Shown piece after piece: positions 4,575-30,049 of a stretch of DNA of 64,000 bases (its first letter is position 1; the number at the start of each line of letters is the position of its first letter). The notes beneath the pieces are model-generated. The model made no database searches. It had not been told where the DNA came from and was given only the letters and a program-made list of their open reading frames with translations. Origin of the DNA: Peptococcaceae bacterium (GTDB lineage: Bacteria > Bacillota > Peptococcia > DRI-13 > PHAD01). The stretch is from NCBI GenBank assembly GCA_024655825.1, contig JANLFJ010000013.1, positions 1 to 64,000 of the forward strand. Reading direction: 5' to 3'. The position numbers and the translations under genes were made by a program.

Positions 4575-6518
4575 TTATTTTTCCATCGCCTCCGCGATAC
4601 CCGCGAGGTCGAGTTCTTCAAGTTTTTTCCTGGTGGGAATCGAGGTAACCGGGTCCCAACCCCTGTATTCATAATACTCGTCCAGCAGCCTGTCGAAAAA
4701 ATCGCGCGCCTTCATGCCTTCGCCGGGGCCGGACCGGATGGGTTCGTCCATCCACCTTGGGCAAAGGGTGTCATCCGAACGTCGCAATCCCACCCTAACA
4801 TTGAAAGCCTTTTCCACGTTGTAAGCCCTCTCGGCGGCGAGCAGCAGCCCGTTTTCCGTCATGTCCATGCCGGTAATCGCCGCATAGGCTTCCGCCAGCA
4901 TATCCAGGGGATATATCGCCGACGAGGCCCTGAACATGCAAATTCCGAGGCAGTTGAACACCGAAATGTAGTTTTCAGCCGCGGCAGCAGCCTTGCCTTT
5001 TAGGTCGGGAACATGCTTTATACCGGCGTCCTTTTTCCCGAACCACCGTAGCGACACGTCCTCTCTCCCCGTTTTATCTATAAAATTAAACCCTTTCATC
5101 ACGTCGCACCCGCGCGTGTTGGTGGCAGCCATCACGCACCAGATAGGGAACGGCCTAACCTCTTCCGGAACCACCATTCCTCCCTTGCCGGCCATTGAAT
5201 AACGCCTTGCGCAAGCGCCCGTCTGCGCCTCGATAAACTCACATAATTTTCCGGTGCTGTAAGAACACATCCGCCCAAGTGTGTTTTCCTGCAGGGCAAT
5301 CGATTCGATGATTTTTACCACCGCTTCGGCACTGCCCCACTCGAGCGCCAGTTCTTCTCCGAACCATTCTTTCACCTGTTGTTCATTGATGATGCCCCGC
5401 TGCCGGAGTTCCATCAAAAAAGGGATGATTCCACCGATTTCTTCATAGTCCAGGCCGTATTTATTGCACAGGTCGCCCAGGAACAGGATCGCCGGGTAAT
5501 CATGGATGTCGCAGGCCATGCCGAATGAACCAACCGTGATGTATTCCGGACTGTATCCTTTAAAGCCCGGTATCTTCCGGGCAAAGGGCGTTTCATTTCC
5601 CCTGACTTCACAGGTTGAACCGCAGCCGAAAGTGCATCCCGGCGAGCAGGAAATGTCGCGGAGCTTTAAGTTTTCTATATACCAGTCGGCGCTTATCTTG
5701 GCAATGTTCTCGTCAGCAGTTTTCGTAAACTGGTTATTGCGGAAGGCGTTGCCGTTAATTGTATTGTAGTAGGCTACACCCATGGTTGAACCGATCTTTT
5801 TCCACCGATCAATACCCGCGCTGTTATTTATGACCTGATATATTTTTTCTGCGGCATTCAAGGCCGCCTTCTTATCATATACATCAATACCCCTGCTGCC
5901 CAAAGCAACTATTGCCTTGAGGTTTTTGCTCCCGGCAACGCATCCTCCGCCCGCGCGAGCGGCGGCCCGGTGGTGCGTCACGATTAAGGAAGCATACCTT
6001 ACGCCGTTCTCTCCGGCCGGCCCGATGCACACAATACCCGCCTCATCCGGAACCCCTCCGGCATACAATGCCTCGATGGTCTCATCCGTGGTCAGTCCCC
6101 ATAAACAGCGGGCGTCCCTGATCTCAATCTTCGCGTTTTCAATATAAATGTACACCGGCCAAGGAGCCCTTCCCGTTATCACCAGGTAGTCTATCCCCGC
6201 CCACCTGAGCTGCGCCCCGAAAGTGCCTCCGCTGGTGGTATCGCCAAAAAAGCCTGTGAGCGGGGACTTGAAGGTGAATTTCGTTTTTGTGCCGAAACAT
6301 GTCGCCGTCCCGCCCAACGGCCCGACGCCGACAATCAGGACATTGTCCTCATCCAGGGGGTCTACCCGCGGGTCAACCTTTAAAAAATGTTCCCACAGCA
6401 GCCAGTCATTTATGCCCATCCCGCCGATGAATTTTTTCGCCAGGGCGGGATCGACCGGCTCCCGCTCAATCGTCCCGGAGCTCAAATCAATCCTTGCCAT
6501 ATCGCCGTACCCGAACAT
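4575..6518 (-). CDS. Aldehyde:ferredoxin oxidoreductase (tungsten/molybdenum pterin enzyme)
   Basis: An AOR-family enzyme of 647 residues that interconverts aldehydes and carboxylic acids with low-potential electrons. Seen are the N-terminal DLSSG and FIGGMGI motifs, the pterin-binding RAGGG-type segment followed by GSKNLKAI (188-203), and a cluster-ligand motif at C291, C295 and C299. This is CX3CX3C, whereas characterised AORs have CX2CX3C. A late Cys in LGIC is the likely fourth ligand. The start has GAGGTGA before it. It is the last enzyme of the 19-gene operon and lies 27 bases after the polyferredoxin gene, its probable electron partner. It could reduce a cluster-made acid to an aldehyde, or oxidise an arylacetaldehyde to feed PaaK; the direction is not decidable. 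Confidence 0.88.
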   Translation of the reverse strand: MFGYGDMARIDLSSGTIEREPVDPALAKKFIGGMGINDWLLWEHFLKVDPRVDPLDEDNVLIVGVGPLGGTATCFGTKTKFTFKSPLTGFFGDTTSGGTFGAQLRWAGIDYLVITGRAPWPVYIYIENAKIEIRDARCLWGLTTDETIEALYAGGVPDEAGIVCIGPAGENGVRYASLIVTHHRAAARAGGGCVAGSKNLKAIVALGSRGIDVYDKKAALNAAEKIYQVINNSAGIDRWKKIGSTMGVAYYNTINGNAFRNNQFTKTADENIAKISADWYIENLKLRDISCSPGCTFGCGSTCEVRGNETPFARKIPGFKGYSPEYITVGSFGMACDIHDYPAILFLGDLCNKYGLDYEEIGGIIPFLMELRQRGIINEQQVKEWFGEELALEWGSAEAVVKIIESIALQENTLGRMCSYSTGKLCEFIEAQTGACARRYSMAGKGGMVVPEEVRPFPIWCVMAATNTRGCDVMKGFNFIDKTGREDVSLRWFGKKDAGIKHVPDLKGKAAAAAENYISVFNCLGICMFRASSAIYPLDMLAEAYAAITGMDMTENGLLLAAERAYNVEKAFNVRVGLRRSDDTLCPRWMDEPIRSGPGEGMKARDFFDRLLDEYYEYRGWDPVTSIPTRKKLEELDLAGIAEAMEK

Positions 6519-6545: not shown

Positions 6546-6989
6546 TCAATAGTAATTGAGGGCCTGTTCTCCCTCTTGGTTATTCATCAAGGGGCTGCTT
6601 TTTTCCGGCCTTGGGGAGCAAAGCCTCACACAGACCGGGTTCCCGCCGCACAGGTCGCACTTCAATATATACCCTTTTTCGGCGATATAAATCGCCTTGA
6701 ACGGGCAGGCCTTTACGCATTCATAACACCTGGCGCATTTATCCCTGTCGTAAACAACAACACCCGTCTCCCGGTTAAAGGCAAGAGCCCCAGCAGCACA
6801 GGCTTCAAGGCATTTCGGCCGGGAACAATTGCGGCAAGTATTGGGACTGTACGTGTTCGTTTTCTGGTCGTAGATAACCCTTATCCTTGCCAGGGACGGG
6901 TTGAATTGCCCTTCATTGTACAGCGAGCACGCCAGTTCGCACTGCCGGCAGCCTATGCATAAATTCTCTTTAACGTTTAACTTTTTCAT
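6546..6989 (-). CDS. Four-cluster ferredoxin-like electron-transfer subunit
   Basis: A 147-residue iron-sulfur protein with sixteen or so cysteines in ferredoxin patterns: CIGCRQCELAC near the N-terminus, CRNCSRPKCLEAC, CARCYECVKACP, and a C-terminal CDLCGGNPVCVRLC. This suggests four [4Fe-4S] clusters, as in HycB/AorA-type subunits that wire AOR-family enzymes to ferredoxin or another carrier. It lies 24 bases after the DAHP synthase gene and directly before the AOR gene, so a two-subunit aldehyde oxidoreductase is the natural reading. A BamC-like role was considered, but no Bam cluster partners are present. Confidence 0.88.
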   Translation of the reverse strand: MKKLNVKENLCIGCRQCELACSLYNEGQFNPSLARIRVIYDQKTNTYSPNTCRNCSRPKCLEACAAGALAFNRETGVVVYDRDKCARCYECVKACPFKAIYIAEKGYILKCDLCGGNPVCVRLCSPRPEKSSPLMNNQEGEQALNYY

Positions 6990-7013: not shown

Positions 7014-8075
7014 TTAATACTCTCTTTTCCGCACGAAGTTCAGCATTTCTTCAAATTCGCCGATGCTCAACTGCTGCTTGCTGTCGGAAAGCGCAAGTTC
7101 GGGGTAAGGGTGCACTTCCACCATCAGGCCGTCGGCCCCGGCCGATAAAGCGGCCGAAGCCATATGATTGACAATGTCTTTTCTTCCCAAGGAGTGACTT
7201 AAATCCACTACTATCGGTAAATGGGTTTCCTTTTTGATAATCGGTATCGACGACAGGTCCAGCGTGTTCCGGGTCTTTGTTTCAAACGTGCGGATTCCGC
7301 GTTCGCACATGATGACCTTTTTATTACCTCGCAAAACAATATACTCAGCCGCATACAAAAACTCCTGGATTGTGGCGTTCAGCCCGCGTTTCAGCAAAAC
7401 CGGGCAATTGCTCTGTCCCACTTCTTTTAACAGCTCGTAGTTGTACATATTCCTCGCGCCTATCTGTAATACATCCGCGTATTCAGCGACGAGTTCGACA
7501 TCCCTTGTATCCACGACCTCCGTAACGGTATAAAGATCATATTTTTTAGCCACATCATGGAGTATTTTCAGGCCTTCCGCCCTCAACCCCTGGAAATCGT
7601 AGGGCGATGTCCTGGGCTTATAAGCGCCTCCCCTCAGAAAACCGATGCCTTTCTCTTTTAACACGCCAGCAACTGTTTCCAGGTATTCCGGTTTTTCCAC
7701 GGCGCAGGGACCAGCAATTATTACCGCTTCCTTGCTGTCCAAATTGAACATTTCCTGGATGCTGTCGAACTTCTCCGGCGAACCGCTGCTGATCAGCAGT
7801 TTCCTTTCCCGGCTCATGCCCATATACTTGAGGGAAGCGGCAAAAACCATATTAAATATTTCCTTGACTAGCTCATTGTTTAAAGGTCCCCGGTTATTCC
7901 TCAAGATCTTTTCAGTCATCTCCGCTTCACGCTCTGCGTCGAAGTACTCCATGCCTTTCTGGTCCTTGAGGTCCACTATCTCTTTTAACAGGCTCGTTCT
8001 CTTGTTAAGCAAATCCAGTATTGATAAATTGATGTCGTCAATTTCCTCCCGCAAGGCTTTTAATTCCCTGGCCAT
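7014..8075 (-). CDS. aroF: Bifunctional chorismate mutase / DAHP synthase
   Basis: A 353-residue fusion. The first about 85 residues are an AroQ-type chorismate mutase (helical, with LREEIDDIN and LLNKRTSLLKEI), and the rest is a type I-beta 3-deoxy-D-arabino-heptulosonate 7-phosphate synthase (GPCAVE, RGGAYKPRTSPYDFQG, QIGARNMYN, LLKRG, DLSHSLGRKD). It catalyses both entry into the shikimate pathway and the chorismate-to-prephenate step. No other shikimate gene is nearby. Being embedded in the operon with a prephenate decarboxylase-like gene suggests a pathway-dedicated copy that raises prephenate for the cluster. In housekeeping copies the mutase domain often serves as an allosteric sensor for prephenate or chorismate; whether that holds here is unknown. 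Confidence 0.92.
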   Translation of the reverse strand: MARELKALREEIDDINLSILDLLNKRTSLLKEIVDLKDQKGMEYFDAEREAEMTEKILRNNRGPLNNELVKEIFNMVFAASLKYMGMSRERKLLISSGSPEKFDSIQEMFNLDSKEAVIIAGPCAVEKPEYLETVAGVLKEKGIGFLRGGAYKPRTSPYDFQGLRAEGLKILHDVAKKYDLYTVTEVVDTRDVELVAEYADVLQIGARNMYNYELLKEVGQSNCPVLLKRGLNATIQEFLYAAEYIVLRGNKKVIMCERGIRTFETKTRNTLDLSSIPIIKKETHLPIVVDLSHSLGRKDIVNHMASAALSAGADGLMVEVHPYPELALSDSKQQLSIGEFEEMLNFVRKREY

Positions 8076-8103: not shown

Positions 8104-9243
8104 TTACCTCAGTAATTCGCGGGCAATGATGTTTTTTTGGATCTGGTTGGTGCCTTCATATATCTGCGTTATTTTTGCGTCCCTCATCCTTTTTTCGACA
8201 GGGTATTCTTTCAAATAACCGTAGCCGCCCAGGATTTGCACCGCATCCACCGTAACCTTCATCGCCATGTCCGACGCCACCGCCTTAGCCATCGCCGCCT
8301 CTTTTGATATGCTGTCCGCACCGCTGTCGATATGCCTGCATGCCTGGTAGAGCAGGCACCTGGCGGCTTCTATCTGCATGGCCATGTCCGCCAGCATGTG
8401 TTGAACGGCCTGGAAGGAAAAGATCGGCTGTCCAAATTGCCTTCTCTCTTTTGAATACTTGAGAGCTTCTTCAAAAGCGCCCTGGGCAATACCTACCGCC
8501 TGCGCGGCGATCCCCGGCCTCGTCCTGTCCAAGGTCCTCATGGCGATTATAAAGCCCATGCCTTCCGCGGCCAGCAGGTTTTCTTTCGGTATCCTGCAGT
8601 AGTCAAAGACCAGGCCCCTTGTGGTCGAGGCCCTTACCCCCAGTTTGTCCTCCTTTTTCCCGAAAGAAAAACCCGGGGTGTCTTTTTCCACAATAAAGGC
8701 CGACAGGCCCATAGCCCCTTTGCTTCTGTCCGTGGAGGCGAAAATGACATAAACATCCGCTTCACCGGCATTGGTGATCATTTGTTTTGTCCCGTTGATT
8801 ACATAGTGCTGGCCGTCTAAAACCGCCCTGGTTTCCGTGCCGGCAATGTCGCTGCCGGCATTGGCCTCGGTCAGCCCAAAGGCGGCCAGTTTTTCCCCCG
8901 AAGCCAGAGCGGGAAGATATTTCGCTTTTTGCTCCGGGCTCCCAAAGAGTATGATGGGGATGGTTCCCACCGCGCTGCCGTTGTAAATCAAGGCAATCCC
9001 GCCGCAGGCCTTGCTTAATTCTTCAACCACCAGGGCCAGTTCAAAAATACCGCCTCCCAGGCCGCCGTATTGTTCTTCGATATAGACCCCGCATAAATCG
9101 GAACCGGCAAGCGCCTTAATAACTTCGTGCGGAAACCTCTCCTCCTCGTCACACTGCGCGGCGACCGGCGCTATTATTTCCCGGGCAATCCTGCCCGCGA
9201 TCTTTTTTATCATTTGCTGCTCTTCTGTTAAGAAATAATCCAT
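8104..9243 (-). CDS. Acyl-CoA dehydrogenase 1
   Basis: A 379-residue FAD-dependent acyl-CoA dehydrogenase of the butyryl-CoA dehydrogenase type. It has the FAD/substrate signature FGLTEANAGSD and, near the C-terminus, IYEGTNQIQ, whose Glu is the usual catalytic base. The ATG at 9243 is chosen because GGGGGGATAAAG lies just before it; a longer frame would run into etfA. EtfA and EtfB are directly upstream in the same operon, so electrons should pass to this flavoprotein pair. In a biosynthetic operon the likely job is an alpha,beta-desaturation (or its reverse) on a CoA- or ACP-bound intermediate. Confidence 0.9.
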   Translation of the reverse strand: MDYFLTEEQQMIKKIAGRIAREIIAPVAAQCDEEERFPHEVIKALAGSDLCGVYIEEQYGGLGGGIFELALVVEELSKACGGIALIYNGSAVGTIPIILFGSPEQKAKYLPALASGEKLAAFGLTEANAGSDIAGTETRAVLDGQHYVINGTKQMITNAGEADVYVIFASTDRSKGAMGLSAFIVEKDTPGFSFGKKEDKLGVRASTTRGLVFDYCRIPKENLLAAEGMGFIIAMRTLDRTRPGIAAQAVGIAQGAFEEALKYSKERRQFGQPIFSFQAVQHMLADMAMQIEAARCLLYQACRHIDSGADSISKEAAMAKAVASDMAMKVTVDAVQILGGYGYLKEYPVEKRMRDAKITQIYEGTNQIQKNIIARELLR

Positions 9244-9280
9244 GACTTTATCCCCCCGTATGGTATTGGTTTGGTTCCCA

Positions 9281-10273
9281 TCAATCGCGAAAACTGTCAA
9301 GAGCCTTGTTTATTTCCGGCACCACTTCATACAAATCGCCGATTATCCCGTATTTTGCATAATTGAAAATAGGCGCATGAGGGTCCTTGTTTACAGCGAC
9401 GATCACTTTGCTGCCGCGGATCCCGGCAATATGCTGGACAGCACCCGATATGCCCAGCGCGATGTACAGCCTGGGCGACACGTTTTTGCCGGTCTGTCCG
9501 ATTTGAATGCCCTGTGAGGCGAGGCCGGAATCAACGACTGCTCTTGTGGCGCCGACCGTTCCTGCCATTTTTTTTGCCAGTTCCGCCAGCATTTTGAACC
9601 CTTCGGGGTTTTTTATTCCCCGGCCCCCCGAGACAATTATCTCCGCCTCCGTCACATCTTCCTGCCCCGGCTCCTGGGTCCGGGCGGCAATCAGCCTCCC
9701 CGGCGGCTCGTGGTCCAGCACATATTCAATCACGTCCAGTTCAGTTTTCCCTCTCGCCTCACCCCCCCCTTTTTTCAGGTTCGAAGACCGGCGGGCCATG
9801 GTGACTATATATGGCGGTTCTCCAGTAAAACTCAGCTGTGCGTGCGCTTTGCCGTAGAAAACCGGCCTGACCGCCTTCAACCTGCCGCCTTCAACAAACA
9901 CCCTGAGACAGTCTGAAATCATGGGAACCCCAAACAGAGCCGAAATCCTGGGGAAGAGGTCTTTTCCCATTATCGAAGCGCTGCCCATGATCAGGCGCGG
10001 GCTCAAATTCCGGGCAGCGGAAAAGAATGCGGGAGCGAAAACATGAACATCGTAGTTCTTGAAGAGCGTTGATTTCAGATAGTGCACGCACCGAATACCG
10101 CAGCCGGATATTTCTTTGATGCTCTCCGGTGGTTCATCCGCCATGACGATGGCCTCTATCTCCAACCCCAGCTGGCCGGCCAGGCAATTGGCAACATTGA
10201 TCAACTCAAAAGCGCTTTTCTTAAAACCCCCGTCCTTGTTCGTCTCTAAAAAAACCACAATTCTGTTATCCAT
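9281..10273 (-). CDS. etfA: Electron transfer flavoprotein alpha subunit
   Basis: EtfA of 330 residues, which with EtfB accepts electrons from acyl-CoA dehydrogenases. The C-terminal FAD domain is clear: GATRAVVDSG, QIGQTGKNVSP, GISGAVQH and AVNKDPHAPIF. The start has AAGGAGCA before it. It follows etfB after 15 bases and precedes the dehydrogenase gene, the usual arrangement. There is no N-terminal ferredoxin domain, so this is a classical Etf of the type that works with acyl-CoA dehydrogenases rather than the fused form. Confidence 0.93.
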   Translation of the reverse strand: MDNRIVVFLETNKDGGFKKSAFELINVANCLAGQLGLEIEAIVMADEPPESIKEISGCGIRCVHYLKSTLFKNYDVHVFAPAFFSAARNLSPRLIMGSASIMGKDLFPRISALFGVPMISDCLRVFVEGGRLKAVRPVFYGKAHAQLSFTGEPPYIVTMARRSSNLKKGGGEARGKTELDVIEYVLDHEPPGRLIAARTQEPGQEDVTEAEIIVSGGRGIKNPEGFKMLAELAKKMAGTVGATRAVVDSGLASQGIQIGQTGKNVSPRLYIALGISGAVQHIAGIRGSKVIVAVNKDPHAPIFNYAKYGIIGDLYEVVPEINKALDSFRD

Positions 10274-10288
10274 AACGTGCTCCTTAAA

Positions 10289-11047
10289 TCAAAGTACTTT
10301 TTCTATTTCCCGCAAAATTCTCACTAATTCCGCCGCGGCATTTCCCGGCTCACCTTCGACAAACCGGCAATCGCTCTTCTCCTCAACCGGATGAATCCTT
10401 TCGATTTCGAGACCGTATAAAACCGATCCCGGAACAGCCAGTTCCTCAATCCTAACCCTTTTCACTTCTTTTTTCCTGGCTGAGATAACGCCTTTCAAGG
10501 AGGGATAACGCGGTTCATTAATCCCTCTGGTTACCCCGACCACACAGGGTATCCCCGCCCGGATAACTTCAATATTGCCGTTTTCAGCCAGTCTTTCAGC
10601 AATCACTTCGTTCTCTTTCACCTGCAGCCTGATGGTATCTATCGCCTGGGGCCATCCCAGCAGGCCGGCCAGCATCCCCCCCACCTGGTGTGCTGAATTG
10701 TCCACGGATTGTTTTCCCATTAACACAAGATCTACTTTTTCCATTAAAACAATGTTTTTTATTATGCTCGCGATCCCGAACCCGTTGATATACCTGCCGT
10801 CTTCATTCACGACATGTACCGCGCGCTCAGCCCCCAGGGCCAGCGCAGAATAAAGGACTTCTTCCAGCCTGCCGTTCCCAATCGTGAGGGCAACAACTTC
10901 GACCCCGCCTTGCTTTTCTTTGATCCTAAGCGCTTCTTCCAGGGCATACTCATCAAAAGCATTCATCACGTATTTAAACGCATTGCCGTACCCGCTCACG
11001 TCTGCCGTCGTTTCAAGTACCCCTTTTATGCATACACCAATCCTCAT
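10289..11047 (-). CDS. etfB: Electron transfer flavoprotein beta subunit
   Basis: EtfB of 252 residues, the small subunit of the flavoprotein pair. The N-terminal CIKGVLETTADV and the central ALEEALRIKEK and GKQSVDNSAHQVGGMLAGLLGWP segments are typical; the last is the adenine-nucleotide binding and recognition region. It sits 16 bases after the methylaspartate ammonia-lyase gene and 15 before etfA. Whether the pair is of the bifurcating kind was not judged; the second nucleotide site motif cannot be settled by eye. Confidence 0.92.
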   Translation of the reverse strand: MRIGVCIKGVLETTADVSGYGNAFKYVMNAFDEYALEEALRIKEKQGGVEVVALTIGNGRLEEVLYSALALGAERAVHVVNEDGRYINGFGIASIIKNIVLMEKVDLVLMGKQSVDNSAHQVGGMLAGLLGWPQAIDTIRLQVKENEVIAERLAENGNIEVIRAGIPCVVGVTRGINEPRYPSLKGVISARKKEVKRVRIEELAVPGSVLYGLEIERIHPVEEKSDCRFVEGEPGNAAAELVRILREIEKVL

Positions 11048-11063: not shown

Positions 11064-12323
11064 TCATATCAATATTTTTACTCTATTTCGCGCGTTCACC
11101 AGGGCCAAAACCCGGTTCATCTCGTTGTGGACGATCATATACCCCTCATCAAATCCCATGCCCGGTTTGGCCATGCACAGGTCGGCCCCGCAGGCCAGGG
11201 CTATATTGGTACAAACCGCTGCTGACCTGTCAGTGCCGTTGCAGGTTCCCCCGCAGTATGCCCCAATCCCTTTTTTCTTGCAGTAAAGTATGGCCTTGGC
11301 CAGATTATTTACTCCGCCCAAATCGGGAGGTTTGATATGAATCATATCCGCAGCTTCCTCATCGACAAACTGTTTAATATCCTCCCAGGTGTTACACCAC
11401 TCGTCGGCCACAATTTCCACAGCGATCCTTTTGGCCTTTAACATGCGGCGCAGTTCTTTATAAACCTGCAGTTGAGCGGCCCTGTTTTCCATATCCAGCG
11501 GCCCTTCGATGCGCAACCTAAAAGGCATCGCCTCCAGGGCCAGTTCCCCGAAATAATTGGCTATCCTCTCCACATTGCTATCAAAGGCCAGGCCGACTGT
11601 GCCGTAGGTGTCAATATGGATAACCGGGCTGTAGGTCTCATTCTCTCTCAGGAGTATAATCCTGTCCCGCACCCAGCCAACGTATTCCTTCAATATTTCT
11701 CCCCTGGAGCCGAGTTTTTCCGCCACATTGTTGACCAGCCCATGGGGGAGGGCATCCACGCCCTTGAGAATCATTTTATCCGTGTTGGCAAAGCGTTCAT
11801 CCCCCGACTGCCCAAGAATAGGCACCCTCTTCATCTCTTGGGCGATCCTGTATTCATCCCTAATCACTTCGGCCATCGTAATCCTCCTGGCCTTCGCCAC
11901 GGCATCGAGGAGGGCCTGGGTAATCCCGTACCGCAGGGCCGGGTGCAGCCTTCTTCCCCTTAAAGCCAGCGTATCAATTTCACCAGCCAATTCGCGAAAG
12001 CTGCCAAGCTCTCTCCCCCGCAACAGTGGTGCAATAACCCTTTCAATAACCGGCAGGGAATTCTCCGCCAGGAATAGAGGTTCTCTTCCTCCAGCGCCTG
12101 AATACTGGACAGCAACGCAATCTCCCAAGGCCACCTGTCCATCTTCCAGTACGAGCATGACGGAGACGGCCTCACCCGGTTGCCTTATTTTTCTGAATCC
12201 CGCGGTAACCGGACTACCCGCATAATTAAAACCATCCCGGACCGCCCCCCTTCTTATTGCCTGCAGATCATCGTAAAAATATCCAGTTCGGCCAACGGAG
12301 CAGACAACATCTGCTATCTTCAT
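11064..12323 (-). CDS. mal: Methylaspartate ammonia-lyase homolog with H329 in place of Gln
   Basis: An enolase-superfamily lyase of 419 residues that aligns without gaps to the numbering of the characterised clostridial enzyme. Catalytic His194, metal ligands Asp238, Glu273 and Asp307, catalytic base Lys331 and Thr360-Cys361 are all present, as are Gln73 and Gln172. Position 329, a Gln that contacts the substrate in known enzymes (recalled, not checked), is His (MIHIKPPDLGG). The family adds or removes ammonia at mesaconate / 3-methylaspartate. No glutamate mutase (glmES) lies nearby, so the glutamate fermentation route is not encoded here. A role making or trimming an amino acid building block of the cluster product is inferred. 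Confidence 0.9.
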   Translation of the reverse strand: MKIADVVCSVGRTGYFYDDLQAIRRGAVRDGFNYAGSPVTAGFRKIRQPGEAVSVMLVLEDGQVALGDCVAVQYSGAGGREPLFLAENSLPVIERVIAPLLRGRELGSFRELAGEIDTLALRGRRLHPALRYGITQALLDAVAKARRITMAEVIRDEYRIAQEMKRVPILGQSGDERFANTDKMILKGVDALPHGLVNNVAEKLGSRGEILKEYVGWVRDRIILLRENETYSPVIHIDTYGTVGLAFDSNVERIANYFGELALEAMPFRLRIEGPLDMENRAAQLQVYKELRRMLKAKRIAVEIVADEWCNTWEDIKQFVDEEAADMIHIKPPDLGGVNNLAKAILYCKKKGIGAYCGGTCNGTDRSAAVCTNIALACGADLCMAKPGMGFDEGYMIVHNEMNRVLALVNARNRVKILI

Positions 12324-12346: not shown

Positions 12347-13330
12347 TCACTCCTGCAGCATTTCCAGCAAGGCCGCGTTCCAGCTGGTTCCCCACCCCAG
12401 CCCGTAAGCGATCATCAGCTCGCCTTTCTTAACCACTTTTTGCCCGGTTATATCCGTTAAATTCCTGATTGTGTCCACGTCGCCGGTGTGAGCGCCCTTG
12501 GGAATATTGTCCAAAAACACTTTCCGGATATCGATCCCCAGCAAGGAGGCATAAATCTCATACCCGCCGTAAGTCGTGTTTTGGGGACATATTACTTTGA
12601 TCGCCTCAAAATCAAGGTTGTTCCTTCTCAACAGCTCCTTCATCGTTTCGGCACCATCGGCAATATAATTTACCAGTTCACGGTAATTGCCTCTCTTGGT
12701 AAAGCTCTCGATGGTAAAACTGTAGCTGCCGGTAGTCCTTGACAAATAATCCCGTATCAGCAGTTTTCTGGGATTGCTCTCAATATAAAGCACGCCAGCC
12801 GCATCGCTGATCAGCGTTACCTGGACATTACGCTTTTCAAGTTCTTTGATTAAACTGGAAGACAGTATGAGCGCCGAGCGGTACCTTCCTGTCCTGATGA
12901 GGGATTCGGCCACATGGATGGAAGTAAGGGAAGCCCCGCAGGTCTGGTCCACATTAAAGGTAACGACATCTCTTTTCAAGTCGAATTTCTTATGAATGTA
13001 GTAAGGAACATTCACTTTACAAGCATGAATGGGCACGCCTTTGGTATAAATCAAAATATCAATGTCTTCCGGCCTGACACCCGAATCTTCGAAAAACCCG
13101 GCGACCAGGTTTTCAAATATTTCAACCTCTTCTTTTTCCTCTTCCACGTACACCCCCGTGATCTTTTTCTGCTTGTAAAACGATTCGCAGAAACTTTCCA
13201 TGTCGCTGTAACCTTCAGGAAGGGAAAAGTTTTTCAGGCTGTTGAAAAATTCATTTACACCAAGGTATTTCCCCGGCAGGTAATAATCGCTGTATGAAAT
13301 TCCAATCCTGTTATTCTCCAAACCCTTCAT
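12347..13330 (-). CDS. 3-oxoacyl-ACP synthase III-like protein, atypical active site
   Basis: A 327-residue thiolase-fold protein of the FabH group. The nucleophilic Cys131 is in DQTCGASL. The place of the usual PHQAN motif reads CPQNTTYGG, so the active-site His appears to be Gln, and the usual Asn (GNTS) is replaced by a GAHTGD segment that offers a His. The overall length and the C-terminal GLGWGTSWNAALL agree with the family. It starts 6 bases after the U32 gene stop, with AAAGGGATG before it. Variants of this kind can act as acyl transferases forming C-C, C-O or C-N bonds instead of chain-extending condensing enzymes. With a dedicated ACP nearby and no malonyl transferase or ketoreductase, a single condensation or acyl transfer is more likely than chain building. 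Confidence 0.82.
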   Translation of the reverse strand: MKGLENNRIGISYSDYYLPGKYLGVNEFFNSLKNFSLPEGYSDMESFCESFYKQKKITGVYVEEEKEEVEIFENLVAGFFEDSGVRPEDIDILIYTKGVPIHACKVNVPYYIHKKFDLKRDVVTFNVDQTCGASLTSIHVAESLIRTGRYRSALILSSSLIKELEKRNVQVTLISDAAGVLYIESNPRKLLIRDYLSRTTGSYSFTIESFTKRGNYRELVNYIADGAETMKELLRRNNLDFEAIKVICPQNTTYGGYEIYASLLGIDIRKVFLDNIPKGAHTGDVDTIRNLTDITGQKVVKKGELMIAYGLGWGTSWNAALLEMLQE

Positions 13331-13336
13331 CCCGTT

Positions 13337-14629
13337 TCATCCCTTTCCGTAACTGTAAAAGAGCCTGCTCGAATTAACGTCGTCCAGAGCTTTTTCAGCC
13401 CTGCCTATTATTCTTTTTCTTTCTTCAGGGTCTATCGACAGCGCTTTTTTCGCCCAGACCCTGCAGTAGGAGCAGGTTTCACCGGATAAATAATCATCTG
13501 GCGTTTTGGAGTCATAGTCGCTTTCGTCGCACATTTTACTGTCGCACTGGTAATGGTCTATGAAAAATTTCAAGAAGTTATCCAGCTTTGTGTTATCAAG
13601 ATAAGGGAGGGTATAAAAAATCGACTCGCGGTAATTGCGGAACAATTCTTCGTTATAGCCTTCTTCCTCAATCTGTTTCCAAAGGTGCTCGTCATGAAGC
13701 TTCCCGTAAAAATTGCCTTTCCCCACAAAATTTACGATATCCAGCAGGTTTCCGCGGTAGGACCTGTGGTGATAGGCTTCGGCCACCCTTAATAACCATT
13801 CGGTTGTCCTGCCTCTTTCGGTTAATTTGAGCGTCAGCCTGTCATACCCCACCTCCTGGCTCAGTTCCTCATAATAATGAATATCCTCTGGCCTGATCCA
13901 CTCTGAAGACACTATCCTGGAGGGGTCTTTAATCTTTAAAAGATTGCAGTTTAAGATCTGGTAATCGACATGAAACAGCCTTGTTTTGGCGTCATCCTTG
14001 GAACCGTGGGCATGAGTCACTGCATGGTTGGCGTGAAAGGGGCATTCGTGCAGGCAGCTGTTGTTGGCAATAAGCCTTATCGTAATATTATGGAGCTTTG
14101 CGTATTTCATCATTTGTTTCAGTTTTTTAAAGTCACGGTTGACGGTGTGAAACATCGTAACCTCGTCTGCCCCTAGCATTTTCCAGTATTGCAGCTGCGT
14201 AAGCGTTTGTACCTTATTGTAAATAGACACCGAAACATAAAGGTGAGGAAACTGGTTTTTTATTATTTCGCATAAATACGGGGAGGCGATTGTTACCCCA
14301 TCGGCCTTTATTGACGAAATCCTTTTCAACAGCTCAACGACTTCCTGGTGAAAAGACTTCTGGAACTCCATCCCGCCCAGGCACAGGGCGTTAAGCAAGT
14401 AATTGAACTTGATGTTGTGGCGGTGACAGTATTCTATATAATCAGCCAGCTCCTTCCATGACAGGATGGGCAGCCTGATCGAAGGCCTGCCTCCGCCAAC
14501 CACATCGTGGTTCATTTTTCCGTATACCCATTCAAAATCGCCATAAGTCGAAATAACATCAATGACTTGTTTATCGAAATTTGCGGCGAGGTCAAAGGTC
14601 ACTTTGCACTCTTTCCTGATTTCTTCCAT
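13337..14629 (-). CDS. U32-family protein, possible Fe-S oxygen-independent hydroxylase
   Basis: A 430-residue protein resembling the U32 'peptidase' family, whose characterised members UbiU, UbiV and RlhA are iron-sulfur proteins of O2-independent hydroxylation. A TIM-barrel-like N-terminal half is followed by a cysteine motif CLHECPF (C192, C196) with a downstream C228, then a C-terminal domain with more cysteines, including TCSYC (386-389). The ATG at 14629 is preferred over the upstream TTG at 14725 because AAGGGGAG precedes it. It lies 119 bases after the ACP gene. Prephenate is reported as oxygen donor for UbiUV/RlhA, and this operon has its own prephenate supply. Peptidase function is not supported by anything visible. 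Confidence 0.72.
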   Translation of the reverse strand: MEEIRKECKVTFDLAANFDKQVIDVISTYGDFEWVYGKMNHDVVGGGRPSIRLPILSWKELADYIEYCHRHNIKFNYLLNALCLGGMEFQKSFHQEVVELLKRISSIKADGVTIASPYLCEIIKNQFPHLYVSVSIYNKVQTLTQLQYWKMLGADEVTMFHTVNRDFKKLKQMMKYAKLHNITIRLIANNSCLHECPFHANHAVTHAHGSKDDAKTRLFHVDYQILNCNLLKIKDPSRIVSSEWIRPEDIHYYEELSQEVGYDRLTLKLTERGRTTEWLLRVAEAYHHRSYRGNLLDIVNFVGKGNFYGKLHDEHLWKQIEEEGYNEELFRNYRESIFYTLPYLDNTKLDNFLKFFIDHYQCDSKMCDESDYDSKTPDDYLSGETCSYCRVWAKKALSIDPEERKRIIGRAEKALDDVNSSRLFYSYGKG

Positions 14630-14748
14630 TTTTCTCCCCTTCGATCTCTTTATAATTTTTTTTATAATTTGTTTCATCTTGCTAATTTTATGACAACTGC
14701 CTTCCCCGCTGTACTTAACCTTCAAGCCAGGCCGGGCTTTTGCTTTGG

Positions 14749-15044: not shown

Positions 15045-15983
15045 TTAAATCAGGTTCGTTATAAACGTACCCTCGCGCGGGGCATCTATCTCTTCGCCCG
15101 CCGCCAGATCGCCGGGCTGTTCTTGACCGAGTAGAAACAGGGCATACTTTTTTTCCAGCACCTTTTTACTTCGTTCCCAGCCGGATAAAAAACGGTCGTA
15201 TTCGCTTCCTTTCGGCACTTTTAAGATCATGTAGGCAAAACCCTGTGTTTGTAAAAAAGCCATCATTTCGCGCAAACAAGCTGCCGATTCTTTTTTTTCC
15301 CCTTGTCTTTCCATATATATTTCCCCTATTTCAACTCCCTTCACCCCGTTGATAATGACTGTCGTAAAAGCAAAATACCCCGCTCTTAATCCCTTTTTCT
15401 CGGCAACAACGAAGCCGTGCTTGACCGGATGTTTAAAATACCTCCACTTTAAATAATCATTCTCTTTTTTGAAATCCAGGCCGTCTATGTCCGGTTCGTT
15501 CAGGAATTGAAAATGCAGCTTTTTCACCGCTGCGTCCCGGCAGCCGAGCGAGATGCCCCACCGGTGCAATTCGCGGTATTCATTGATCTGAAACATAAAC
15601 CGCCAAGTGATAAATGAATTGCGGTCTATGGGGAAAAAGACAAACCTTGGGCAGTCCTTTAACTCTTGCCGGCACAGTGTTTCCACAAACTCTTTCGCGT
15701 AGCCCTGCATACGGTAAGCGGGGTCAAAAATGACGTCCGAAAAAGCAGCCATCCTGCCGTGCCGGTCTTTCCCCAGGATGACGCCGCAGAAACCTATCGG
15801 CCGGCCGTCCTCATTAAGACAGCAGTACGCCCTGGCATAAGGATTATCAAAATACTTGTACCTGTAAAAACCCACTTCATGCGTTCTCAGGACATGGTTG
15901 TTGTTTTTCCAGTATACCTCCCACATCCCGCTCCACTGCTGAAGGTCCTTGCTCGACAGGGGTTCAATGCCTATTTTTTTCAT
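15045..15983 (-). CDS. GNAT-type acyltransferase
   Basis: A 312-residue protein with a GNAT acyltransferase domain in its first half: the strand IGFCGVILG, then the acyl-CoA pyrophosphate-binding segment YRMQGYAKEF. The second half looks like a further degenerate GNAT-like fold of the kind seen in two-domain family members. It lies between the acyl-AMP ligase (10 bases upstream) and the ACP gene. It could transfer an acyl group from CoA or from the adjacent carrier protein to an amine of the product. The substrate is unknown. Confidence 0.72.
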   Translation of the reverse strand: MKKIGIEPLSSKDLQQWSGMWEVYWKNNNHVLRTHEVGFYRYKYFDNPYARAYCCLNEDGRPIGFCGVILGKDRHGRMAAFSDVIFDPAYRMQGYAKEFVETLCRQELKDCPRFVFFPIDRNSFITWRFMFQINEYRELHRWGISLGCRDAAVKKLHFQFLNEPDIDGLDFKKENDYLKWRYFKHPVKHGFVVAEKKGLRAGYFAFTTVIINGVKGVEIGEIYMERQGEKKESAACLREMMAFLQTQGFAYMILKVPKGSEYDRFLSGWERSKKVLEKKYALFLLGQEQPGDLAAGEEIDAPREGTFITNLI

Positions 15984-15993: not shown

Positions 15994-17553
15994 TCACTTC
16001 AGGAGTTCTGCCAGGAGATCCCTTTTTAATTTGCCCGTGTTGGTCCGAGGAAGGGCTTCGACGAATACCACCCTGGCCGGCACTTTATGGCGCGGCAGGA
16101 CTCTTTTGCAGAATTCGTATATTTCATTCTCCGTCAGCCTCTCTTTCGGAACAACAAAAGCGTATATGGTTTTTCCCATGTAGTCGCTGAAGGTTTCCCT
16201 AATCCCGCTTTCTTCCTTGATGCCTATCACGCCGGCTTCGGCGACCAGTTCATGGGTCAGAAGCGCTTTCTCAATCTCGATGGGGAAGACCCTTTCCCCG
16301 CCTATTTTGATCATTTCGTCCATTCGGCCGGAAATATACAGGTACCCGTCTTCATCAAGTTTCCCAAAATCGCCGGTGTATAGATACGAATCCTTTATTT
16401 TCGAGGCCGTCGCTTCAGGATCGTTCCAATAGCACTTCATAATATTCGGCCCGGCGACGATAACCTCCCCGTACTCATTGGGCGGCAGTATGTTCCCTTC
16501 GGAGTCGACAATCTTTAAGTCCATTCCTTTTATGGGCCTGCCTACGGAACCCGGTTTCTTATCCAGCTCGTCCGGCTTCAGAATGGAAATCCTGGCAGTC
16601 GCTTCGGTTTGGCCGTACATCACGTAAACATCCAAGCCCATAGACCTCATCTCCGAAACAACCCAGTCGGCCACAGGCTCGCCGGCAAAAGTGACATATC
16701 TTAAAGCGGGCCATTCCAGTTCTTTAAACGGCGACCTTTTCAACAGCAGAATAAAATTCGAGGCAACACCGGCAATGCTTGTGCATTTCTTCTCTTTTAA
16801 ATCATTGAGAATATAGACGGGCAGCTGTGAATTGTTGTTGATGGTCAGCCTCGCGCCCCTGGCCACGTGGCTTAAAATGAGAGAGTTCCCATATGAGTAG
16901 TAAAAGGGGATTATCACCAGCATGTTGTCGTTTTCGTTAATGTCTATCCGGTCAATGATTTGCTCCATGTTCGCCAGGAGGTTCCTGTGCGTCAGGCAGA
17001 CCCCGTTGGGTAAACCTTTCGTCCCCGACGTGTAGATGATCTGGGCGATGTCGTTTTCATCCTGCCTGTAAAAGTCAGCAGGGTTATAATGCATATCGCT
17101 GTCGTCAAGAATAACCTTTTTAAAACTTTTTATTTCCATGCTTGTACCATTTTTGTATCGCTCAAATTCGTCATCGAAATTGTAACAGGTGATAGAGTCT
17201 AGCAATTTTTTGTCCAGGTTCAAGACAGTTTGCAGGTAATTGTTGTTGGTAAACAAGACCCTGATCCCGGCATTGGAAATAATCCTTTCCAGGTCGTATT
17301 CCTTATTGAGAGGATTGATGGCCACCACAATATTGCCGCTTTTGATTATGCCAAAATGGCAAACCAGGTAATCAAGGGAATTTTTGGATAGTATCCCCAC
17401 CGCAGTCCCCCGGCCGTACTTTTTTAGTTCCAGGGCCAGCCTGTCCGAGTAGTAGTCCAGTTCCCGGTACGTCATGTTTTCATCGCCGGCGCTGGCATAA
17501 ACCCGGTCACCGTACTTTTGGGCGCAGCTTTTAAGCAGTTCCTGGACGAGCAT
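15994..17553 (-). CDS. Acyl-AMP ligase / acyl-CoA or acyl-ACP synthetase
   Basis: An adenylate-forming enzyme of 519 residues. The ATP loop reads IIYTSGTKGLPNG, the mid motif MYGQTEA, the ATP-contact YLYTGDFG, the hinge SGRMDEMIKIGG, and the catalytic C-terminal Lys lies in NTGKLKRD. The ATG at 17553 is chosen for the GAGGAGGTG just before it; a longer frame starting at 17613 overlaps the previous gene. It most likely activates a carboxylic acid and loads the ACP encoded two genes on, or makes a CoA ester for the acyl-CoA dehydrogenases. The acid cannot be named from sequence. Confidence 0.88.
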   Translation of the reverse strand: MLVQELLKSCAQKYGDRVYASAGDENMTYRELDYYSDRLALELKKYGRGTAVGILSKNSLDYLVCHFGIIKSGNIVVAINPLNKEYDLERIISNAGIRVLFTNNNYLQTVLNLDKKLLDSITCYNFDDEFERYKNGTSMEIKSFKKVILDDSDMHYNPADFYRQDENDIAQIIYTSGTKGLPNGVCLTHRNLLANMEQIIDRIDINENDNMLVIIPFYYSYGNSLILSHVARGARLTINNNSQLPVYILNDLKEKKCTSIAGVASNFILLLKRSPFKELEWPALRYVTFAGEPVADWVVSEMRSMGLDVYVMYGQTEATARISILKPDELDKKPGSVGRPIKGMDLKIVDSEGNILPPNEYGEVIVAGPNIMKCYWNDPEATASKIKDSYLYTGDFGKLDEDGYLYISGRMDEMIKIGGERVFPIEIEKALLTHELVAEAGVIGIKEESGIRETFSDYMGKTIYAFVVPKERLTENEIYEFCKRVLPRHKVPARVVFVEALPRTNTGKLKRDLLAELLK

Positions 17554-17569
17554 ATCGAACACCTCCTCA

Positions 17570-18595
17570 CTAAACAATGTGTTCCAGTCCCAGTTTTCGT
17601 TTGCACTCGTCAATAACTTTTTGGTCCAGGCTTCCCTCCAGCCTGGCCAGCCCTTCGTCGCGGGTAATGACCCCGCTGCGGATCAACCCGCTGATCTCCT
17701 GGACATACGGGTTATAACCGTATTTTTTCAGGTGGACGTAATTGCCGAAAGCGTTCAACAGGCAGTTGGTCGAGTTTAAATCCGTGTTTTCGGGGTTTTC
17801 CCAGCCCAGGTCTTCAATCAAGGCCCTGACCTTTTCCATCCTGTATTCGTTAAAAAGCAATGGATTAATCAAATAAGGGATAGCGGGCGCGTTTTCCTCA
17901 AATTCGCGGGCCTCAAGAAAGTAGTTCTCTTGAAACCCTTCCAGGTGCGTCTTGTTGGCGTTGATAAACACTTCCTGGGATTTTGCCAGGAAAGAGGGGA
18001 GCGGTTTCAGGATGATGCCCCTGCGCTCTATTTGCCCGGGAGCCCACCCGAAAACCAGCATGGGGATTCTCTTTTCGACCGCCAGCTTTAACGAATTGTA
18101 CCGGATAAAATTTATGCAGGTGGTGCAGATGGCCGACGCTCTCATAATGGCTGCCCTTGAATATATTTGGTCGTTCAACGCGGCACTGGCAAAAAGCTTT
18201 TTCAACAGGTCGATCCTGGGCGAAAAAACGATGTTGTCCACATTAAGTCTTTCGGTAATGTTTTTGATGTTTTTCCTGGCGCCTTCTGAAATAAACCCGT
18301 TATCAAACGTGTAGGTGAGAACGTTTAGCCCGTATTTTTCTTTTAGGAGGTACAGAGTGTACGTGCTGTCTTTACCGCCGCTGAAGGCCAGCAGGCAGTC
18401 ATACCTGTTTTTGGACTTGATCGAATCAATGATCTGCAGGAACTGGTTCTCGTACTCCCGGCCAAACGCCCCGTTTTCTTCACTGGCCGGCGAGCGGCAG
18501 TAATTGCACACGCCGTCCTCCGAGAAGGTTATTCCCGGAAAGGCTTCTGGCAGCACGCACCTGCTGCAGACCCTGAGGCTTCCTGGAGAACTCAT
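17570..18595 (-). CDS. PP-loop ATP pyrophosphatase (N-acetyl sugar amidotransferase-like)
   Basis: A 341-residue enzyme with a zinc-ribbon-like N-terminus (CSRCVLPEAFPGITF...CNYC) and the PP-loop AFSGGKDSTYT. A CTTC motif follows in the middle. This layout is that of the WbpG/PseA amidotransferase-like group, which adenylates a carbonyl or amide and replaces it with nitrogen, usually with ammonia from a HisH-type partner. No HisH partner is here. An ATG at 18595 is preferred because GGAGGTGG lies just before it (two tandem ATGs, and a TTG at 18610, are alternatives). It is next to the NadE-like enzyme, giving two ATP-dependent nitrogen-inserting candidates in one operon. The substrate is unknown. 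Confidence 0.78.
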   Translation of the reverse strand: MSSPGSLRVCSRCVLPEAFPGITFSEDGVCNYCRSPASEENGAFGREYENQFLQIIDSIKSKNRYDCLLAFSGGKDSTYTLYLLKEKYGLNVLTYTFDNGFISEGARKNIKNITERLNVDNIVFSPRIDLLKKLFASAALNDQIYSRAAIMRASAICTTCINFIRYNSLKLAVEKRIPMLVFGWAPGQIERRGIILKPLPSFLAKSQEVFINANKTHLEGFQENYFLEAREFEENAPAIPYLINPLLFNEYRMEKVRALIEDLGWENPENTDLNSTNCLLNAFGNYVHLKKYGYNPYVQEISGLIRSGVITRDEGLARLEGSLDQKVIDECKRKLGLEHIV

Positions 18596-18640
18596 CATCC
18601 ACCTCCACAAACAGCTTTACTCGTTTCCAGGCCGCTGAGC

Positions 18641-19615
18641 CTACAATTCCATGGAACCGCAGGCCGGCGGGAGCATCTTAATGTGCATGGTGTTGTTTTT
18701 CTTGTTCTGGAAGTTGGCAAAGATCGCGGCAACCTGCTTTTCTTCCATCCCGACTATTTTTGCTGTTTTAGCCGCTGAAAAGTTCTTGGCGTGCGCGTAC
18801 AACAGCCTGTCCAGAATATCAAAGGGAAGCGAAAAGAAAAATTCTTCGTCGCTCACATAAGCGCTGCATGTGTCGGGTGACGGCGTCCTCTGCTGTATCT
18901 CTTCGGGAATCTTCAGGTATTTTGCCAGGTCATAGACCTGCGTTTTATAAAGGTGAGAAATAACCTCGAAATCTATCCCTCCATCCCCGTACTTGCAGAA
19001 ATTGCCCAGGTCGAATTCGGACCTGTTTGTCGTACCGGCAACCGCCATATTGTTTTTTTCGGAATAATAGTAGAGGTTGATCATTCGCACCCTCAATTTT
19101 ATGCTGAGAGCGGCCTGAAAAGCTTTGTAATCATGAAAGGGCAGTTTTTTCCTTAACACCTCGTTGCCGCTGCTGTCCACCACGGAAAGCGAGTAAAGAT
19201 TTAAGATCGATTTATCCAGCATGCCTGGAAGCACGATTTTATATTTGAATGACTCGTTAAATCCCGGGTGGTATTTCTTGACAATCTCTTCGATTTTTTC
19301 ATATACGCCGAACTGTTCAAGAATCGGGGTAATATCTTTTTTGACATAATTTATGCCCAGGGTTTCAGCAAGTTTTACTGCATAAGGCTCGCTTTCCTTG
19401 CTTGACTCTTTTTCCGGCAGCACAACACCCAGGACCTTGTCTTTTCCAAGCGCTCTCACGCACAGGGCTGCCGTTACGGAAGAGTCAATTCCCCCGCTCA
19501 GGCCGATTACCACCCCGTCCCTCTTGAGAAACTCATAAACAATTTGCCGGATGGAGTCGCAAATTTTCTGGCATTCCACAGCCCAGTCTTTTACAAAACA
19601 AATACTCTCGCTCAC
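18641..19615 (-). CDS. NAD synthase-like amide synthetase
   Basis: A 324-residue protein of the NH3-dependent NadE family, with the adenylation loop GLSGGIDSSVTAAL and GTTNRSEFDLGNFCKYGDGG, a family hallmark. It lacks a nitrilase glutaminase domain, so it would use free ammonia. It carries an insertion of roughly 50 residues in the middle (about 100-165) compared with short bacterial NadE, and starts with GTG after GGAGGGATG. It could be the cell's NAD synthase caught in the operon, but its place between biosynthetic genes suggests recruitment to adenylate and amidate a carboxylate of the product. Confidence 0.8.
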   Translation of the reverse strand: MSESICFVKDWAVECQKICDSIRQIVYEFLKRDGVVIGLSGGIDSSVTAALCVRALGKDKVLGVVLPEKESSKESEPYAVKLAETLGINYVKKDITPILEQFGVYEKIEEIVKKYHPGFNESFKYKIVLPGMLDKSILNLYSLSVVDSSGNEVLRKKLPFHDYKAFQAALSIKLRVRMINLYYYSEKNNMAVAGTTNRSEFDLGNFCKYGDGGIDFEVISHLYKTQVYDLAKYLKIPEEIQQRTPSPDTCSAYVSDEEFFFSLPFDILDRLLYAHAKNFSAAKTAKIVGMEEKQVAAIFANFQNKKNNTMHIKMLPPACGSMEL

Positions 19616-19666: not shown

Positions 19667-20788
19667 TCACACGAAAATGGAAATAAAACTTTTAATCCTG
19701 TCAGGATCGCCCCCCAGTATGGTCACGGCCCTGATGTCGCGATAAAGGCGTTCAAGTATGTTGCCCCTGATATAGCCGTACCCACCAAAAAGCTGCAGGC
19801 AGTAATCGCAGATTGCTTTTGCCTTTTCGGTAATTTTCAGTTTGGTAATGCAACAGTTCAAGAAATCGTTTTGTCCCGCCTGGCCGAACAGGGAGGCCGC
19901 ATTAAACGTCGCCAGCCTCATCAGTTCCAGGTCCGCCTTCATGTCGGCGAAATTGTATTTTACATACTGCATGTCGATAAGATAAGTCGAGTATATCTTC
20001 CTGATTTTTGCGTAGGCCAGCGCCTCCTCGTAAGCCCTTTCGGCAATCCCCAGCGCGATGGCGCAGTTGCTTATCCTCGCCAGGTTGGTGGCATTGGTGA
20101 TTATTTCCATTCCCTGGTTTACTTTTCCCAAAAGGCTCCCTTCATCCAGGGTCACATTGTTAAAAAACATGTCCGCGATCCTCAAAGACTGCAGTCCCAT
20201 GGTCTCTTCAGCCTGCCCTATCTCCACGCCCGGGCTTTTCAAGTCAACGATGAACGCCGACAACCGTTCCCTTTCCTCAACCGGTTCCTCGCTTGTCGCC
20301 GCGACCATGGCAAAATCGGCAAAAGGCGCGTTGGTAATCATTGACTTGCTGCCGTTCAAAACAAACCGGTTGCCGGCGGGCTTAAAGACTGTCCTGATCT
20401 CGGTCTGGGGCTCCACATAAGCGAAATTACCTTCCTTTTCTCCCAGGGCGCAGGGTCTTAGATACTTCTCCTTTTGTTCCCTGGTCCCATAGACAATTAC
20501 GGGGTAGGCAAAGCCGAAGTTTACGGTAGCCACCATGTGGGCTACGGCCGCGTCAGACCTGGCTATTTCGTTGATCACGATCATGGATGAAACGACATCC
20601 AGGCCGGCGCCGTCGTATTCCGGGGGAACCAGTAATCCCTTATAACCCAATTCGCCCAGCTTTTTCAACACCCCGGCAGGGTACTCTTGCTTGTTGTTGC
20701 GCTCATGGGCGCCTTTTTCAATATGCCTGTTAACCAGTTCTCTAACCGATTCCCTCAGACTGACCTGTTCCTTGCTGAACGCGAACAT
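19667..20788 (-). CDS. Acyl-CoA dehydrogenase 2, lacking the usual catalytic Glu
   Basis: A 373-residue acyl-CoA dehydrogenase-fold protein with the family N-terminus and FAD-binding segments (FAYVEPQTEI, LFGGYGYIRGN). At the C-terminus, where dehydrogenase 1 has IYEGTNQIQ, this protein reads ILGGDPDRI, so the standard catalytic Glu is a Gly. Some family members carry the base elsewhere (helix G), so loss of activity is not proven. It lies 40 bases after the TPP enzyme gene and 51 before the NadE-like gene. It may be a paralog working on a different, perhaps non-CoA, intermediate. Confidence 0.83.
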   Translation of the reverse strand: MFAFSKEQVSLRESVRELVNRHIEKGAHERNNKQEYPAGVLKKLGELGYKGLLVPPEYDGAGLDVVSSMIVINEIARSDAAVAHMVATVNFGFAYPVIVYGTREQKEKYLRPCALGEKEGNFAYVEPQTEIRTVFKPAGNRFVLNGSKSMITNAPFADFAMVAATSEEPVEERERLSAFIVDLKSPGVEIGQAEETMGLQSLRIADMFFNNVTLDEGSLLGKVNQGMEIITNATNLARISNCAIALGIAERAYEEALAYAKIRKIYSTYLIDMQYVKYNFADMKADLELMRLATFNAASLFGQAGQNDFLNCCITKLKITEKAKAICDYCLQLFGGYGYIRGNILERLYRDIRAVTILGGDPDRIKSFISIFV

Positions 20789-22587: not shown

Positions 22588-23196
22588 TCAAATCTCCAGC
22601 ACCAGCAAATAGCCGCTGCTCATCAACAGCAAGCTGAATTCTTCGCGGCCGGCCATCTGGTAAATTGTCATTGGCTGGAACTCGAATCCCACACCGTCGA
22701 TTTTTATTCTTGTTTCGCCCGGGGCGATAAAAAAGTAGTCGCATGTTTTTTTCGCGCTGATATTTATGAGCGCCGTGTTCTTTTTGTTCATTATTTTTCT
22801 GAGTTTCATCCCGTTTAGTTGTGCTGTCTCCAGCAGGAGGTCGTCGTTGTTAACTTTTTCTTCCAGCACATTTAATCTCAGGTCAACTGTTTCTTTACCG
22901 CCCGACAGGTATTTAACATCCATTGATTTGAAATCGGCTGCCGCATCGACCGAGTGTTCCGCTCCCGCGTTTATTAACAGGGAGTCTCCCCGCTTTACCG
23001 GATGCCTTATTCCCTTTACCGTGAGGTCAAATCGCCCTTGAAAGCAGTAAACGAACTGGTGGTGCGGGTGACTGTGGCCGTCAAAACCGGTGCCTTTTTT
23101 GATGTCATTGAGCAAAATCTCATAATTATCGGTTATAAAGTAAACTTGGTTAAACCCTTTCTTAACAAGTTTTGAATCTGTTATTTCTCTTATCAA
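22588..23196 (-). CDS. Bicupin protein, BacB-like
   Basis: A 202-residue protein with two cupin barrels. The first has a full metal-binding set: HSHPHHQFVYCFQG (about residues 41-54) and, after the turn, GDSLLINAGAEHS. The second (from about residue 120) lacks these His. The start is a TTG at 23196 after GGGGAG. It lies directly after the BacA-like gene (28 bases). In bacilysin synthesis BacB is a bicupin that isomerises the product of the prephenate decarboxylase BacA. The same neighbour pair and fold make that role the leading guess here, though bicupins are functionally diverse. Confidence 0.75.
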   Translation of the reverse strand: MIREITDSKLVKKGFNQVYFITDNYEILLNDIKKGTGFDGHSHPHHQFVYCFQGRFDLTVKGIRHPVKRGDSLLINAGAEHSVDAAADFKSMDVKYLSGGKETVDLRLNVLEEKVNNDDLLLETAQLNGMKLRKIMNKKNTALINISAKKTCDYFFIAPGETRIKIDGVGFEFQPMTIYQMAGREEFSLLLMSSGYLLVLEI

Positions 23197-23224
23197 ACAA
23201 ACCCACTCCCCGTTTTATTTTGCC

Positions 23225-26420: not shown

Positions 26421-26467
26421 GAACTTTATATCCTCCCTTTATTTAATATTAAATGCACAACTATGCG

Positions 26468-27787: not shown

Positions 27788-27850
27788 AGAATCACTTCCC
27801 CCCGTCGTAAAAGATTGGCTCGCTTAACCCGGCCTTATCCTGACAGCTGG

Positions 27851-28357: not shown

Positions 28358-28372
28358 TCTTTATCCCCTCCC

Positions 28373-28783: not shown

Positions 28784-28785
28784 CG

Positions 28786-30033: not shown

Positions 30034-30049
30034 TCGCTACATCCCCTTT

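Follow-up and report, generated by a model that had tools for sequence, protein, structure and literature searches.

A methylaspartate ammonia-lyase paralog with an altered substrate pocket in a conserved carrier-protein gene cluster of a Peptococcaceae bacterium

A protein of the methylaspartate ammonia-lyase (MAL) family, carrying histidine instead of glutamine at position 329, is encoded within a conserved gene cluster that also encodes a carrier protein, and its substrate pocket is changed at sites that other MALs conserve. The gene lies in a 64,000-nucleotide stretch of DNA from a Peptococcaceae bacterium (assembly GCA_024655825.1, contig JANLFJ010000013.1), referred to here as the window. 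On balance, it is probable that a duplicated MAL of glutamate fermentation moved into a carrier-protein-dependent biosynthetic cluster and was re-specialised there, the direction of the reaction and the substrate being less certain. A more specific version, which is offered tentatively, is that duplication turned a C-N lyase of this family into an enzyme dedicated to making a beta-substituted (non-methyl) aspartate, destined for a carrier-bound, possibly prephenate-derived metabolite.

In the laboratory engineering of MAL, L384 is among the residues that have been changed to broaden the substrate range. Here, a natural lineage has altered the same pocket (F170 and L384), together with the contact to the C4 carboxylate (Q329), after leaving glutamate fermentation. 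With the cluster enzyme, the evolution of MAL specificity can be tested directly; the enzyme might also serve as a biocatalyst for beta-substituted aspartates, and it opens a way to a gene cluster that is apparently undescribed. A search of literature with few subscription journals found no paper that connects methylaspartate ammonia lyase to biosynthetic gene clusters; one review mentions the enzyme in passing (PMC5808125).

Identity of the protein and its gene cluster

The open reading frame runs from 12323 to 11064 on the minus strand, starts with ATG and encodes 419 amino acids. As a whole protein, its product scores 569.3 bits against the NCBIfam model TIGR01502 (curated equivalog cut-off 286.15), and it is also matched by Pfam MAAL_N and MAAL_C. 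Residues 1-412 of the Clostridium tetanomorphum MAL (PDB 1kcz) align with it without gaps, and the classical MAL numbering is therefore valid for the window protein. A preliminary description made from the DNA letters had placed the catalytic and metal residues at their classical numbers, and the alignment agrees: the metal ligands D238, E273 and D307, the catalytic residues K331 and H194, as well as Q172, T360 and C361, are all kept. The same description had read His instead of Gln at position 329, the contact to the C4 carboxylate, and the CAT codon confirms it. In addition, the pocket of the 3-methyl group, formed by F170, Y356 and L384 in the classical enzyme, consists here of Leu170, Tyr356 and Met384. 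Compared with the enzymes of EC 4.3.1.2 (C. tetanomorphum 1kcz and Citrobacter amalonaticus 1kko/1kkr; TIGR01502), the window protein shares full-length homology (about 67% identity to true MALs), the numbering, and the catalytic, metal, amino-group and C1-carboxylate residues. It differs by Q329H and, beyond what had been described, by F170L, I197V, T332P, E363G, Q382L and L384M, T332P being private to this protein, and its gene is unlinked to glutamate mutase and placed inside a carrier-protein cluster. Judged by its sequence and catalytic residues, the protein belongs to the MAL family. Nonetheless, its annotation as "methylaspartate ammonia-lyase" names the family and should not be taken to name the substrate, because the Gln329 and methyl-pocket features both depart from the classical enzyme. 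A pseudogene was considered and rejected, as the reading frame is unbroken and no catalytic residue has been lost; that His329 stems from a sequencing error is very improbable, because both relatives described below use the same CAT codon.

Table 1. Coordinates of the enzyme, its diagnostic codons and the surrounding genes (window positions unless a locus is given).
Feature	Position	Strand	Basis or remark
MAL paralog with H329	11064..12323	-	TIGR01502 569 bits; ungapped alignment to 1kcz; residue table
Codon CAT, His329	11337..11339	-	Gln in 67/67 non-cluster full-length relatives
Codon CTT, Leu170, 3-methyl pocket	11814..11816	-	Phe in 66/67 others; pocket per PMC7241714
Codon ATG, Met384, 3-methyl pocket	11172..11174	-	Leu in 66/67 others; pocket per PMC7241714
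Codon GGC, Gly363, two residues after C361	11235..11237	-	Glu in 66/67 others
O-methyltransferase, first cluster gene	23814..24854	-	PF00891
Diverged prephenate dehydratase-like (PDT-like) protein without TRF motif	23225..23785	-	PF00800 48-50 bits; alignment with the genome's own PheA
Cupin protein	22588..23196	-	Weak BacB match (3h7j, E 2e-5)
ThDP-dependent enzyme, acetolactate synthase-like	20829..22532	-	
Acyl-CoA dehydrogenase-like protein 2	19667..20788	-	
NAD synthase-like ATPase (PRK00876 subfamily)	18641..19615	-	
WbuX-like amidotransferase/ATPase	17570..18610	-	Below family cut-off
AMP-forming acyl/aminoacyl ligase	15994..17613	-	
GNAT acetyltransferase-like protein	15045..15983	-	
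Stand-alone acyl/peptidyl carrier protein, 96 aa	14749..15039	-	PF00550 24.3 bits, cut-off 20.8; homologue in the same place in G010
Peptidase U32-like protein	13337..14725	-	
KAS III-like condensing enzyme/acyltransferase	12347..13330	-	
Electron transfer flavoprotein beta subunit	10289..11047	-	
Electron transfer flavoprotein alpha subunit	9281..10273	-	
Acyl-CoA dehydrogenase-like protein 1	8104..9300	-	Nearest NCBIfam model acryloyl-CoA reductase, below cut-off
DAHP synthase/chorismate mutase	7014..8075	-	PRK12595 496 bits, cut-off 279
4Fe-4S ferredoxin-like protein	6546..6989	-	Last gene in common with the relatives
Aldehyde ferredoxin oxidoreductase	4575..6518	-	27 bp downstream of the cluster's Fe-S gene; not there in the relatives
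Divergent Desulfovibrio MAL	L066:10001-11233		No glmE nearby

The cluster comprises 18 genes (Table 1) and is matched gene by gene in two genomes of the same order and a different family (G003 and G010). The shared order begins with the Fe-S protein, DAHP synthase-chorismate mutase, an acyl-CoA dehydrogenase, EtfA, EtfB, MAL and the KAS III-like and U32-like proteins; continues with the carrier protein (read in G010), GNAT, AMP ligase, WbuX-like ATPase and NAD synthase-like protein; and ends with the second acyl-CoA dehydrogenase, the ThDP enzyme, the cupin, the prephenate dehydratase-like protein and the O-methyltransferase. The encoded proteins are about 39-74% identical between the window and the relatives, which have one extra acyl-CoA dehydrogenase between the carrier protein and the U32 gene. 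The intergenic spacing in the window, from -44 to +55 bp, suggests that the cluster is one operon. The carrier protein exceeds the Pfam cut-off for the phosphopantetheine site, and it stands together with a carboxylate-activating ligase and tailoring enzymes in this conserved operon. Elsewhere in the genome there are apparent housekeeping counterparts of three members: a longer NAD synthase-like protein, a prephenate dehydratase, and a DAHP synthase recognised by eye beside PheA. Such extra copies would fit a dedicated biosynthetic cluster and are what one expects of one. No recognisable aminotransferase was found in the cluster. Searches with the U32 protein located the cluster in 3 of the 46 genomes of the class; among 398 genomes of the phylum, they returned no further copies, only a 33% identical relative in G066, which sits in an NRPS-like cluster (L096).

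Distribution of His329 and origin of the cluster enzyme

Relatives gathered from whole-genome searches and from scanning public genomes amount to 70 full-length MALs, that of the window included. His329 occurs in three of them, the window protein and those of the two relatives (L004 and L005, from G003 and G010), and the remaining 67 all have Gln329. A DNA pattern for HIKxPDLGG found the window as the sole match among the 398 phylum genomes, a sample that excludes G003 and G010. Only three cluster MALs are known in all, two of them 97% identical. It had been conceded at the outset that His329 might be common in true glutamate-fermentation enzymes, which would speak against a changed substrate. 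This does not hold, since none of the 67 others, glmE-linked MALs included, has it, and since G003 and G010 contain MALs of both types. The second MAL of these two genomes lies directly downstream of glutamate mutase E and has Gln329, Phe170, Glu363 and Leu384.

The absence of glmES near the gene, noted from the start, extends for the E subunit to the whole genome: no match to PF06368 was found in this 99.5%-complete assembly, while all five comparison genomes contain one. The window genome has a single MAL, with no glutamate mutase E beside it. The usual fermentation of glutamate through methylaspartate, with a mutase gene at a distant locus, would agree with the equivalog-level match, but it is hardly credible here given the lack of PF06368, the conserved neighbourhood of biosynthetic type, and the absence of His329 from the glmE-linked MALs examined; a distant mutase was rejected on the strength of the whole-genome search for the E subunit. 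Among the 67 Gln329 loci whose flanks were usable, glmE adjoins the MAL gene in about 60. The exceptions include Gln329 MALs in G092 (two copies), G064 and G076 (L108, L109, L110 and L111), which have no adjacent glutamate mutase E and keep Gln329, Phe170 and Leu384. Thus, loss of the mutase neighbour alone does not bring about His329, and it was rejected as its cause.

When the six diagnostic columns (see below) were left out of the alignment, a maximum-likelihood tree grouped the three cluster MALs in a single clade (bootstrap 97, SH-aLRT 84). This clade is sister to the glmE-linked MAL of G006 and lies deep within mostly glmE-linked enzymes. That His329 arose separately in the window protein and in its relatives is not favoured, since the tree unites them even without these columns. 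The simplest history is that a fermentation MAL was duplicated within or near this order and then recruited to the cluster.

Linked changes in the substrate pocket

According to published work on MAL, the C4 carboxylate is bound, and the enolate stabilised, by Q329, H194 and Mg2+; the C1 carboxylate is held by T360 and C361, the amino group is contacted by Q172 and Q73, and the 3-methyl group sits in a pocket of Y356, L384 and F170, the L384A change lowering kcat on 3-methylaspartate 1760-fold (PMC7241714). A comparison at the 172 sites where 90% or more of the other MALs agree showed that the three cluster MALs share changes at six of them: F170L, I197V/F (Val in the window), Q329H, E363G, Q382L and L384M. 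All six lie at most three residues from published pocket residues, and three (170, 329 and 384) are pocket residues themselves; sites 197, 363 and 382 are assigned to the vicinity of the pocket solely by closeness in sequence. The corresponding hypergeometric p values, about 1e-4 and 4e-3, respectively, are rough, as the window of three residues on either side was set post hoc and kinship is ignored. As a control, 14 of 15 other clades or single lineages changed no pocket residue, though some altered 14-18 conserved sites. The exception is the divergent Desulfovibrio MAL L066, which combines F170L, E363G, Q382M and L384Y with H194Q and keeps Gln329. It is possibly an independent change of specificity; its neighbourhood contained nothing informative on its role.

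In the cluster MALs, the contacts to the amino group (Q73 and Q172) and to the C1 carboxylate (T360 and C361), as well as H194 and K331, are unchanged, whereas two of the three methyl-pocket residues and one contact to the C4 carboxylate are changed. This pattern suggests that the aspartate/fumarate core is the same and the substituent at C3 a different one, a reading that we infer from which contacts are kept and which are changed. In this sense, a changed substrate is indicated more directly by F170L and L384M than by His329 alone. The preliminary description had proposed, from His329, a different substrate used as a building-block step of the cluster product: the tight, conserved cluster of biosynthetic type and the two pocket changes strengthen the proposal, but His329 alone is no proof of a new substrate, because the C4 carboxylate can receive a hydrogen bond from histidine as well. 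The reaction need not be abolished by it. Since histidine donates hydrogen bonds as glutamine does, and F170L and L384M are conservative, activity on methylaspartate may be retained.

For the same reason, the enzyme might still work on 3-methylaspartate and mesaconate, the latter coming from, e.g., citramalate and being aminated as a building block, with the pocket changes tuning rate or stereochemistry. All catalytic, amino-group and C1-carboxylate contacts would suit such a role, and 3-methylaspartate, made with glutamate mutase, is known to be loaded as a starter unit onto a carrier protein in clusters of the vicenistatin/sceliphrolactam type (PMC5785472). The window cluster resembles these in having a carrier protein and an AMP-forming ligase, with a beta-branched aspartate as a possible unit; it differs in having a MAL homologue and no mutase E. 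We regard this alternative as rather unlikely, since two of three methyl-pocket residues and the C4 contact changed jointly, while the MALs of other genomes without adjacent glmE keep F170, Q329 and L384. It is distinctly more improbable that the protein is no longer an ammonia-lyase and uses the proton abstraction of the enolase superfamily for isomerisation, epimerisation or another elimination. The members of this superfamily start from a common enolate step with different outcomes (PMC5808125), and the active site is indeed altered, but the protein, so close in sequence to true MALs, retains Q73, Q172 and every catalytic residue.

Proposed reaction and neighbouring genes

If the duplicated enzyme was re-specialised within the cluster, MAL chemistry is most likely kept, with an Mg2+-assisted enolate, Lys331 as the base, and a C-N bond that is formed or cleaved on an aspartate/fumarate core. 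Its substrate would most likely be a 2-substituted fumarate, or an aspartate with a C3 substituent other than methyl. His329 probably makes, in place of Gln329, the hydrogen bond to the C4 carboxylate or enolate. The most likely direction is amination to a beta-substituted aspartate building block, which is favoured because a cluster without a recognisable aminotransferase would need a source of nitrogen. This aspartate could be activated by the AMP ligase and then loaded on the carrier protein.

The MAL reaction is reversible, and a re-specialised enzyme might instead deaminate, the substituted fumarate going on to the carrier protein or to reduction by the acyl-CoA dehydrogenase and ETF. A dehydrogenase resembling acryloyl-CoA reductase is in fact encoded with ETF immediately downstream of MAL. 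However, no cluster gene obviously supplies a beta-substituted aspartate, and the lack of an aminotransferase would make a nitrogen-adding step useful; deamination is thus unlikely, less so than the loss of lyase activity and more so than continued use of mesaconate.

Several neighbours hint at prephenate chemistry. The catalytic TRF motif is present in the genome's own PheA and absent from the PDT-like protein of the window and of both relatives. In the window, this protein adjoins the cupin with a weak resemblance to BacB (22588-23785), and the cluster has its own DAHP synthase-chorismate mutase. In bacilysin biosynthesis, the pair formed by BacA (a prephenate decarboxylase) and BacB (a cupin isomerase) diverts prephenate without aromatisation. 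The PDT-like/cupin pair may be a parallel, given the absence of TRF and the weak cupin match. The U32-like gene shares the cluster with these prephenate-forming genes, and hydroxylation that depends on prephenate is known to require U32 proteins such as TrhP (PMC6599085). The NAD synthase-like gene adjoins that of the WbuX-like ATPase; both proteins may introduce amide or amidine groups into the product.

Genes flanking the cluster in the relatives resemble, as read by eye, AgrB, a sensor kinase and a LytTR-type regulator (L085:5307-10091 and L086:1-1845), and quorum control may operate there. The corresponding flank of the window holds a TRAP transporter operon instead. Downstream of the cluster, a sigma-54 activator and a phenylacetate-CoA ligase come after the aldehyde ferredoxin oxidoreductase. 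Finally, positions 25266-32297 encode the TRAP transporter, aconitase X in two parts, an altronate/galactarate dehydratase-type protein and a GntR regulator, apparently a separate operon for the catabolism of hydroxy acids.
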